Shown here: one piece after another, positions 23,734-61,257 of the stretch
Numbering within the stretch: position 1 is the stretch's first letter
How the letters are laid out: each line of letters starts with the position of its first letter
Assembly (NCBI RefSeq): GCF_001975705.1
Contig: NZ_CP015093.1
Coordinates: forward strand, 3,604,501 to 3,668,500
Source: Salipiger abyssi
GTDB taxonomy: Bacteria; Pseudomonadota; Alphaproteobacteria; Rhodobacterales; Rhodobacteraceae
Direction of reading: 5' to 3'
DNA length: 64,000 nt
Notes under the pieces: generated by a model
Database searches by the model: none
Seen by the model: the letters and a program-made list of their open reading frames with translations, nothing else
What the model was told of the DNA's origin: nothing
Position numbers and translations under genes: made by a program

Positions 23734-23877
23734 GCCGCACCATCGCCGGCCCGCCCGACCGGGCTGGCGATTTGGCTGTGCCTGCTGTGTCGTTGAGAGG
23801 TGCTTCGGACTTGGCCGGGATAAATCGAGAGGATCGACCCCTCGGATCGCCACCCAGCGGGCCGACGATGGTGCGGC
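23734..23877 (-). repeat. Palindromic intergenic element, copy A (inverted orientation)
   Basis: 144 bp bounded by near-perfect 20-bp inverted repeats GCCGCACCATCGCCGGCCCG at 23734-23753 and CGGGCCGACGATGGTGCGGC at 23858-23877. The core on the minus strand contains CTCTCGATTTATCCCGGCCA followed by AGTCCGAA, shared with copies at 28867 and 60057. It fills most of the 403-bp gap between pyrE and pyrC. The remaining flanks (23594-23733 and 23878-23996) show no gene that I can support. Confidence 0.82.
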
Positions 23878-28866: not shown

Positions 28867-29011
28867 GAGCCGCGCCATCGCCGGCCCGTGGGTGGCGATC
28901 TCAGCTCTGAACCTCTCGATTTATCCCGGCCAAGTCCGAAAGACCTTAACACGCAGCGCTGTTGTCACCAAATCGCCAGCCCGGGGGACGGGCCGGCGAT
29001 GGCGCGGCGGC
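28867..29011 (+). repeat. Palindromic intergenic element, copy B
   Basis: About 145 bp with perfect 20-bp inverted repeats GCCGCGCCATCGCCGGCCCG at 28869-28888 and its reverse complement at 28989-29008. Inside lies a second inverted layer (GGTGGCGAT near the left end, AATCGCCAGCCC near the right) and the core AACCTCTCGATTTATCCCGG. It occupies much of the 392-bp gap between acpP and the binding-protein gene. The rest holds the acpP terminator and a half-copy of the GGTGGGCA hairpin at about 29051. Confidence 0.85.
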
Positions 29012-29135
29012 TTCGCCTTGATTCCGCGCCAGGGCACCGCTCAAATGTAGGGTGGGCAAGTGGTCACCAGCCATCTTCGGAAGGGGTCAGACGTGAAGCA
29101 CATGGGCCGCACCCCAAGAGCGCGGCCCACCACGA

Positions 29136-58762: not shown

Positions 58763-59320
58763 GTGACCACCCCGCAAGCCGAGATCGAAGATCTGATCGC
58801 CCGCATCGCCATGGGCGACCGCGCCGCTTTTCGGCTGCTCTATGATCGGACGGCGGCGAAACTCTTTGGCGTCTGCCTGCGTGTCTTGGATGACAGGGCG
58901 CTGGCGGAGGAGGCGCTTCAGGACGTTTACTGCAAGATCTGGGCACGCGCCGGGCAGTACCGGGTGAACGGGTTTTCGCCGATGACCTGGCTGATCACGC
59001 TGGCGCGCAACGCCGCCGTCGACCGGCGCCGCCGGCGCGATGCCGGGGCAGGGCGGGTGACCGACCCGATCGACGCGGCGGATCTGATCGCCGATCCGGC
59101 GCCGGGCCCGGCACAGCATGCCGAGGCGCGCGGCGAAGCGCAGGCGCTGGCCGCCTGCATGTCCGAGCTGCCGCCGGAACGCGCCGAGATGGTGCGCCGC
59201 GCCTATCTCGACGGCGACACCTATGCCGAGCTTGCCACCGCCACCGGCGTCAAGCTGAACACCGTGAGAACCTGGCTGCGCCGCAGCCTGATGCAGTTGA
59301 GGGAGTGCCTGAGCCGATGA
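58763..59320 (+). CDS. ECF-family RNA polymerase sigma factor
   Basis: 185 residues from a GTG. Region 2 (about 12-80): [38 protein letters not shown]. Region 4 (about 125-180): [23 protein letters not shown] and [18 protein letters not shown]. The stop overlaps the next gene by 4 bases (ATGA). An upstream frame extension has no homology. Targets are unknown. Confidence 0.9.
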
Positions 59321-60009
59321 GCGGGCGAGAGGAAACAGATCTTCCGGGCGGCTGGGAAGCCGCGGCGGCGGAGTATGTCCTCGGGCTGCTGTCGGAGGAC
59401 GAGGCCGCCGCCTTCGAGGCGCGGCTGGCACAGGACCGCGATCTGCGTCAGGACGTGGAGGCGTGGGAGGAATATTTCGCCACGCTCACCGATCCGATTG
59501 CCGAGGTCGCGCCGCCGCCGCAGGTGCTGCGACGCACCGAGGCAGAGCTCTTCGGACGCCGGTCGCAGCCGGCCTGGCGGCAGTTGCTGCCCTATCTGCT
59601 GGGCGCGGTCACCGCGGCGGCGATTGCCTGGGCGGTGAGCTTCAGCGGGCTGCTCGATACGCGCGACGCGCCGCATCTCTATGCGGATCTCGAAACGCCC
59701 TCGCGCGGGCTGGTGATGCTGGCGCATTATGCGCCCGACAGCGGCACGTTCATGGTGCGGCGCGATGCGGGCGCCTATCCGGAGGACCGCTCGCTGGAGA
59801 TCTGGCTGATCGCGGATGAGGACAGCGCGCCGATGTCGCTGGGGCTGGTCGATCGCGAGGGGCTGACCGAGATCCCGGTGCCGCGCGCCATCGCCCGTCA
59901 GATCCCGGGCGCGGCGGTGGCGATCTCCGAAGAGCCCGAGGGCGGTTCGCCCACCGGTCAGCCGACCGGGCCGGTGTTGGCGCTCGGGCAGATGGCGCCG
60001 CGCGGATAA
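59317..60009 (+). CDS. RskA-like anti-sigma factor
   Basis: 230 residues. The N-terminal cytosolic region (about 10-80) has the zinc-less anti-sigma fold ([19 protein letters not shown]), then a single transmembrane helix (about 94-111, [18 protein letters not shown]) and an extracytoplasmic RskA domain ([20 protein letters not shown]). Overlapping start with the sigma gene shows that it controls that sigma factor. Trigger unknown. Start 59317 preferred over GTG 59305. Confidence 0.88.
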
Positions 60010-60030
60010 GCGGATTTTGGGTGCGTGAGC

Positions 60031-60262
60031 GGTGGGCAGATTGCCCACCCTATGGTGAGCCGCGCCATCGCCGGCCCGTGGGTTGGCGATATGCCTTGCG
60101 AACCTCTCGATTTATCTCGGCCAAATCCGAAAGACCTCGACACGTTGCTCTAACCTCACCAAATCGCCAGCCCGGGGCGCGGGCCGGCGATGGCGCGGCG
60201 GCCTTCGGCCTTGTCCCGCACCCGGGGCAACGTTCTGGTGTACGGTGGGCAATCTGCCCACC
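60031..60262. repeat. Palindromic intergenic element, copy C, with outer hairpins
   Basis: The most complete copy. The inner element is 60057-60202 with perfect 20-bp inverted repeats (60059-60078 and 60180-60199). Outside it lies a second inverted pair: GGTGGGCAGATTGCCCACC at 60031-60049 and its exact reverse complement at 60244-60262, each itself a hairpin. Core AACCTCTCGATTTATCTCGG. It fills most of the gap between the anti-sigma and oppC-like genes. Confidence 0.88.
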
Positions 60263-60276
60263 GCTCGCGGCATCCC

Positions 60277-61257
60277 TTACCGCCCGCGAATCCGCGGATC
60301 GAGCGCGTCGCGCAGCCCGTCGCCGAGATAGTTCACTCCCAGCACCGTCAGCGAGATCGCGATCCCCGGCAGCATGACGCGCTCGGGGAAATCCTCCATC
60401 CGCGCCACCGCGTCGGCCAGCATCTTGCCCCAGGTCGGGAAATCCGACGGGAACCCCACGCCGAGAAAGCTCAGCGCCGACTCGGTGATGATCGCCGTCG
60501 CCAGACCCAGCGTCGCCGAGACCATGATCGGCGACAGCACATTGGGCAGCAGATGCCGCCTGATGATCTGGAAGGGCCGCGTGCCGATGGACCGCGCCGC
60601 CAGCACGAATTCGCGCTCCTTGATCGCGAGGATGTCGCCGCGCACGATCCGCGCCGTGGGCATCCAGGAGGTGATCCCCACCACCGTAACGATGAGGATG
60701 AACATGCCGCCCTCGGGGCCGAAATTGGCGCGCAGCGGCTGGCGGAACAGCGTCACCGCCACCAGCAGCAGCGGCAGGATCGGCAGCGACAGGAACAGGT
60801 CGGTGAGCCGCATCAGCGGTCCGTCGAGCTTTTTGAAGAACCCTGCCATCACCCCCATGCCGGTGCCGATGATCAGCGACAGCAGCATCGCCGCCCAGCC
60901 CACCGCCATCGAGGCGCGGCCGCCGGCGATGAGCTGCGCGAGGTTGTCGCGGCCGAGCTGGTCGGAGCCCAGCGGGTGGTTCCAGCCGGTCTTGGCGGTG
61001 GAATCCCACAGCGCCGTATAGATCGGCCGCATGTCCTTGGAGCGGATGTCCAGCGCCTGCGGATCCAGCGTCCAGATATACGGCCCGAACAGCACGCCGA
61101 GCGTGATGAAGATCAGGAAGAACGCGCCCAGCATGGCGCCCTTGTGCTTGCGGAACTGCTCCCAGACGTCGCGCCATTTCGAACGCGGCGGCGCCTGCGG
61201 GCCCTTGTCCTTGAGCGCTTCGATGGGGGCGGGCGAGGAGGGGACGGGCTCAGTCAT
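60277..61257 (-). CDS. Peptide/dipeptide ABC transporter permease (OppC/DppC type)
   Basis: 326 residues, about six transmembrane helices with the BPD permease motif RIVRGDILAIKEREFVLAAR and ESALSFLGVGF. N-terminal extension of about 40 residues, Pro/Lys-rich. Overlaps the partner permease by 8 bases. Imports oligopeptides or similar solutes. The ATPase subunits would lie further along (outside the window). Confidence 0.9.
   Translation of the reverse strand: MTEPVPSSPAPIEALKDKGPQAPPRSKWRDVWEQFRKHKGAMLGAFFLIFITLGVLFGPYIWTLDPQALDIRSKDMRPIYTALWDSTAKTGWNHPLGSDQLGRDNLAQLIAGGRASMAVGWAAMLLSLIIGTGMGVMAGFFKKLDGPLMRLTDLFLSLPILPLLLVAVTLFRQPLRANFGPEGGMFILIVTVVGITSWMPTARIVRGDILAIKEREFVLAARSIGTRPFQIIRRHLLPNVLSPIMVSATLGLATAIITESALSFLGVGFPSDFPTWGKMLADAVARMEDFPERVMLPGIAISLTVLGVNYLGDGLRDALDPRIRGR

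Follow-up and report, generated by a model that had tools for sequence, protein, structure and literature searches.

An inner stem-loop nested between GTAG-class REP hairpins in an intergenic palindromic element of Salipiger abyssi

The window is a 64,000-nucleotide stretch of the Salipiger abyssi genome (contig NZ_CP015093.1), in which a palindromic element at positions 60031-60262 lies between two convergent genes. We found two separable layers in this element, an outer pair of REP hairpins and an inner hairpin nested inside it, and the inner block recurs at two further places in the window. The features are as follows.

59305-60009, plus strand: gene left of the element, with its end 50 bases from the inner block
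60031-60053, minus strand: left REP, hairpin GGTGGGCA-GAT-TGCCCACC (60031-60049), the GTAG-like tag reading ATAG on the minus strand and pointing inward
60059-60078, plus strand: 5' arm of the inner stem (helix H1), from complementarity to 60180-60199 and covariation
60079-60179, plus strand: loop side of the inner block, holding CCTCTCGATTTAT...GGCCAA.TCCGAA..ACCTC
60180-60199, plus strand: 3' arm of the inner stem, of which 60192-60198 doubles as left strand of a competing helix, H2
60200-60222, plus strand: 3' extension, made of the hairpin GGCC-TTC-GGCC, TTGTC and the partner strand of H2 (60216-60222, mismatched here at one position)
60240-60262, plus strand: right REP, GTAC followed by GGTGGGCA-ATC-TGCCCACC, tag inward
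60277-61257, minus strand: gene right of the element, convergent
28869-29008, plus strand: second inner block, shared with genome G012 at an unchanged place and orientation
29047-29068, plus strand: right REP belonging to the second copy, damaged, with GTAGGGTGGGCA followed by degenerate sequence
23734-23877, minus strand: third inner block, on the opposite strand

The inner arms are 20 nt long and 100% complementary, as a first, sequence-only reading of the window had stated, and the exact inverted 19-nt hairpin pair that it described around them proved to be included in outer arms of 29 nt (60024-60052 and 60241-60269) with 93% complementarity. Its three window copies were likewise recovered. 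Both outer REPs are kept only in the 60 kb copy; the 23.7 kb copy has no REP matching the pattern, and the right REP of the 29 kb copy is damaged. The third block carries the same compensating change in both arms and in the extension (column triple A-T-A). The loop-side motif is well conserved inside Salipiger, and its TTTAT is conserved above 90% over the sampled genera. Small hairpins (for example CGCACC..GGTGCG) inserted in arm loops form a third nesting level at L090 (the 60 kb site in G012), L170:16777, L190 and L192.

We assessed the outer layer with a pattern of a GTAG tag plus hairpin, which gave 104 both-strand matches in the S. abyssi genome (up to two mismatches, some palindromic places being counted on both strands) and 0 in the control. 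The tag stands beside a short hairpin genome-wide, the window copy reading ATAG and GTAC, and the REPs often form inverted pairs with the tags inside. Within the window, four matches were found at up to three mismatches against 0.01 expected, these four being both strands of two palindromic places, both in the 60 kb element. A 187-residue protein encoded on the same contig as the window (L207:9369-9932) is a RAYT, matching NCBIfam REP_Tyr_transpos (E = 9.6e-51) and the solved TnpAREP structure PDB 4er8 (E = 3.5e-40). REP presence tracked RAYT presence over 20 Salipiger genomes: BLAST found the RAYT in the same three genomes that have abundant REPs (71 both-strand matches at up to one mismatch in S. 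abyssi, G000; 118 in G012; 83 in G004), the other 17 having 0-3 matches each, and in all three carriers the RAYT has REPs on both sides. REPs and RAYT being confined to the same 3 of 20 genomes, the outer layer is therefore a REP/RAYT system of the GTAG class, a kind already described. Outside the genus a weak RAYT match occurred in a genome of another family (G026, E = 7.6e-5), the REP comparison covering Salipiger only. Cleavage or transposition of the REPs by the RAYT is a predicted role, drawn from published REPIN work, by which the RAYT would have spread the REPs through single-stranded DNA.

Several observations concern the RAYT gene itself. A REP lies in frame inside it (L207:9657-9683; also in L250 and L251), in the same place in three species and within residues 90-116, where homology to 4er8 breaks. 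A diverged second RAYT relative (54%) is present at G012:C3:218752-219294, and a fragment (50%) in the S. abyssi genome at G000:C5:1009483-1009644. The Pfam model PF01797 (Y1_Tnp) was discarded as a RAYT detector, having been negative in the S. abyssi genome although the RAYT is present, and that negative was dropped.

The outer hairpins agree with GTAG REPs and REPINs with their RAYT (TnpAREP), as characterized in PMC3733652 and PMC3116915, in the GTAG tag, the hairpin, the inverted doublets, the intergenic copies, the RAYT gene between REPs and the REPs sometimes lying within genes. Membership in a described repeat family, which the earlier reading had named as a refuting outcome, holds for the outer hairpins; the inner block matched no named family among those searched. 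Unlike published REPINs, the doublet here encloses an unrelated second stem-loop of about 180 bases. Spacers of published REP dimers are mostly 20-100 bp (PMC3733652). Of 16 S. abyssi doublets that lack the block, 10 had spacers of 16-61 nt and 6 had spacers of 117-246 nt, block remnants being recognisable by eye in some, and 22 block-bearing doublets (G000 and G012) held 182-303 nt inside, counts that are biased in that the stretches had been picked for the block. REP dimers are also associated with other palindromes in Anabaena variabilis (GTAG-15) and Halothiobacillus neapolitanus (CGTC-1), where the dimer sits inside the other palindrome; here the reverse applies, the other palindrome lying inside the REP dimer and also occurring alone.

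The inner block is a stem-loop of about 177-180 bases that is separate from the REPs and also occurs without them. A 216-base query gave at least 56 BLAST matches in the S. abyssi genome (40 of 138 first-look candidates scored), including reverse-strand hits of the same palindromes, and merging in the fetched stretches left at least 38 distinct copies on the main contig and smaller contigs. Across genomes, BLAST placed the block in at least 14 of 41, S. abyssi included (at most 20 candidates scored per genome), with no match in 27 among the candidates scored. S. bermudensis genomes carry the block with almost no REPs and have no outer inverted repeat above shuffled level on average; there, the conserved stretch takes in a few bases upstream of the 5' arm and, downstream of the 3' extension, fades within about 20 bases. 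From 100 stretches, 96 of them 20 kb long, of G000, G012, G018 and G019, we collected 112 copies after removing one duplicate from two overlapping stretches.

A covariance model built from 40 chosen copies found the block at E ≤ 1e-6 in at least 51 of 149 sampled genomes of the family, representing 50 of 148 genera, E-values being rough after a short calibration; no match was seen among the candidates scored in the other 98. Carriers ranged from those with at least 16 matches (12 genomes) to those with one (13 genomes). Fifty-eight loci from 29 carrier genomes were aligned, all matching the model, after 13 further matches, mostly on the reverse strand, had been removed. Rfam 15 gave no match in the window at gathering threshold and, for five loci at E up to 1, two weak matches, both off the block; a phage origin was rejected, a phage collection having given no match to the block. 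Titles and abstract openings in one literature library held no description of the inner block.

Some further observations bear on distribution. Of the 31 inner blocks listed for contig C5 of the S. abyssi genome, 3 fall short of the 1.87 Mb position on its 4.25 Mb (p = 7e-5), while 14 of the 38 listed REP places do so; the lists were made by hand from the matches listed, and the cut was chosen afterwards. In a subfamily (L172:6566, L194-L198) the match to the block profile is limited to about positions 7-135, and the ends seem to be different ones. Similar intergenic places (L294, L296, L302, L303, L122, L123) are also occupied by a different repeat, GCCTCCGGCGGGAGTATTT with AAGAAG close by, or its inverse; at one site where the inner block is present in G012, G000 and G004 have a relative of this repeat.

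Gene context was assessed with a home-made codon score for calling genes, so that the counts are approximate. Among the 112 Salipiger copies, 73 lie between convergent genes, 35 between tandem genes and 4 between divergent genes; gaps of at least 60 bases in the same stretches were convergent in 204 and divergent in 254 of 988, a background that includes the copies' own gaps. Family-wide, the 58 loci comprised 28 convergent, 23 tandem, 3 divergent and 4 undecided places, here with no independent background. Orientation beside tandem genes was nearly even (16 same and 19 opposite in Salipiger, 13 and 10 family-wide), which speaks against an element read with its neighbour. The earlier view that adjacent genes do not explain the element is supported.

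Judged from the aligned copies, compensating changes keep the inner stem. In 40 copies hand-chosen from 82 complete ones, H1 was 99.0% paired and 6 of its 20 pairs had double changes, a level reached in 0 of 500 shuffles; when each of 29 sampled genera was represented by a single row, double changes were seen in 11 of 20 pairs. H2, the pairing of the 3' arm with the 3' extension, was absent from the covariance model, yet it covaries too, with 18 double-changed cells where shuffles gave 1.7 (maximum 7). Since one and the same strand of the 3' arm is required by both helices, they are mutually exclusive. All three segments change together in several genera (L314, L327, L329, L332, L333), and at L328 and L364 only one of the two helices is intact.

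Wobble pairs in H1 were strongly asymmetric, G·T outnumbering A·C by 40 to 4 (p = 1.7e-8) in an alignment fitted to the stem, where the remaining cells comprised 1031 Watson-Crick pairs, 46 other mismatches and 39 gaps, and by 20 to 3 with one row per genus (29 rows, p = 0.0005). In a set aligned with no fitting to the stem, G·T and A·C stood at 9 to 2 in H1 and 6 to 2 in H2, and alternative local hairpins (H3) showed the reverse asymmetry (3 to 6). The excess of G·T over A·C in H1 therefore suggests that one particular strand of the inner block is read as the folded one. In 47 of 58 loci the small 3' hairpin is capped by T-N-C, the middle base being free to vary. Such a cap is compatible with UNCG loops, which the shorter GGC-TTC-GCC caps do not fit.

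We compared the block between G000 and G012 at 20 shared single-copy sites and found it inverted relative to its flanks in six. In three of these the counterpart is the nearest among the 112 copies; the other three may be replacements. With a site scored as framed if framed in at least one genome, inversions occurred at 6 of 14 framed sites and at none of the 6 bare ones, a difference that was not significant (p = 0.115). Adding 19 S. bermudensis pairings gave 7 of 15 framed and 2 of 24 bare (p = 0.015), with some sites counted twice, the threshold set after seeing the data, and the single framed S. bermudensis case consisting of terminator-like hairpins, not REPs. At L185/L168, sequence between the repeats has been exchanged end for end up to the REPs (by eye), the recognisable left REP being lost in G000, and at the inverted site L168 the outer flanks match over 11 nt. 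Flanks outside both REPs matched at 6.07 of 12 positions in own pairs and 4.96 of 12 in swapped pairs (29 copies, p = 0.017; swapped pairs not independent), a likeness that is striking in four copies at three sites. One site has a single REP in G000 where G012 has the whole unit, which could be either a collapse of the unit or the older state. By template switching between inverted repeats, the arms are made alike and the spacer between them is inverted (PMC8604942). Paired outer repeats would act as arms for such switching during replication, which would invert the sequence between them and make the flanks alike, and replication template switching is the likely cause of the in-place inversions.

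The sequence-only reading had proposed either a non-autonomous mobile element or a structured RNA; the element is indeed non-autonomous, structured and present in many copies, although not as one element of one kind. The inner block occurs without REPs and matches no named family searched, and the choice between mobile DNA and RNA applies to the inner block only. We consider it fairly probable that the locus is a nest of two non-autonomous hairpin repeats, the outer belonging to a REP/RAYT system, the inner mobile as single-stranded DNA and the whole subject to inversion by template switching. For the inner block we favour mobile DNA that would be recognised as a folded single strand and would settle in the least harmful places; its main rival is a two-state RNA. 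More tentatively, at somewhat short of an even chance for the parts taken jointly, the block may be an undescribed family-wide element selected as one folded strand, this strand would hold two exclusive stems sharing the 3' arm and a conserved TTTAT loop and serve as the substrate of a single-strand DNA enzyme or as a two-state RNA, and in Salipiger the block may have turned into invertible cargo of REP doublets. The inner hairpin is apparently older than the outer REP pair, and apparently undescribed. Counting against the favoured reading are the reversed asymmetry in H3, the 46 H1 mismatches of other types family-wide, the TTTAT conservation, for which it gives no account, and the failure to recognise a clean empty site or target duplication at the nine sites described below. 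Y1_Tnp (PF01797) was also absent from the 12 Salipiger genomes in which BLAST had matched the block, which is weak evidence, as this model misses the RAYT here too.

An RNA that acts as a transcript of the folded strand, either a noncoding RNA or a 3'-end element with two attenuator-like alternative folds in which the 5' arm and the 3' extension compete for the 3' arm, seems unlikely, though it is the strongest of the alternatives. It would accommodate the 40 to 4 ratio in H1, the covariation of two helices with one strand in common and the T-N-C caps, which are compatible with UNCG loops; the GGC-TTC-GCC caps do not suit such a loop. The near-even orientation beside tandem genes speaks against it, as do the 35 bases upstream of the 5' arm, which lack strong conservation except in the last few, the lack of an Rfam match over the block, and the pairing of at least 38 copies in one genome with a lack of matches, among the candidates scored, in 27 of the 41 genomes searched by BLAST and 98 of the 149 searched with the covariance model.

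A conventional MITE, derived by deletion from a DDE insertion sequence and mobilised through its terminal inverted repeats, is a distinctly less probable account. The inner block falls within 70-300 bp, has inverted repeats, lacks coding capacity and occurs in many copies, in which it resembles the MITE-like repeats RUP, NEMIS and ERIC named in PMC3733652; unlike these, it has two competing helices, occurs in a third of the sampled genera of the family and comes with no known enzyme or target duplication. The first reading had proposed looking for traces of movement; at five and then four sites, where spacers had diverged or been replaced, neither a target duplication nor a clean empty site could be recognised. 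One of the five candidate empty sites holds a clear element remnant and one a possible remnant, the rest being too diverged. The four others have a G012 copy and no counterpart in the fetched G000 stretches, which show a single REP hairpin at L158, a short REP doublet with remnants at L154, and replaced or unalignable spacers at L164 and L161. The end of a known insertion sequence was also rejected, no copy with its arms far apart appearing among the S. abyssi matches listed (40 of 138 candidates scored) and no transposase being annotated within 2 kb of three plasmid copies (3 of 49 records). Nor did an autonomous relative carrying a transposase appear among those listed matches or around those three plasmid copies.

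The outer repeats vary by lineage, which likewise argues against a conventional MITE. An outer inverted repeat exceeded shuffled level in mean score only in the G000, G012 and G160 groups, and as a general feature it was rejected, since the groups G107, G133, G044, G018 and G019 and a mixed set of 27 loci were not above shuffled. In G160 another outer inverted repeat, approximately TTGGCCTGGAGCGGACGTT, surrounds the block (L307, L336-L344; possibly L315), as seen by eye in 10 fetched copies. These copies share their outer repeat as if framed units had been amplified together, as the MITE account would have it; no target duplication was recognised in them by eye, and 2 of 9 own pairs scored no better than shuffled.

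Least probable, and very unlikely in our judgement, is that the paired arms and compensating changes are by-products of template switching in a neutral palindrome whose fold is unselected: such switching makes arms alike while inverting the spacer (PMC8604942), compensatory changes can arise from it (PMC8794818), and inversions, matching flanks and local hairpins with no G·T excess are all seen here, but it treats both strands alike, so that the 40 to 4 asymmetry in H1 is not expected from it, and it leaves conserved unpaired columns, such as TTTAT across genera, unaccounted for.

A structured repeat present in about a third of sampled genera and matching nothing in Rfam needs a name and a mobiliser, and the inner block will keep appearing as unexplained intergenic sequence. 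Its nesting in REP doublets is a natural experiment in which template switching at bacterial palindromes could be measured through inversions between sister species. The wobble-pair asymmetry offers a simple test to separate selection on two-strand DNA from selection on a single strand in other repeat families.
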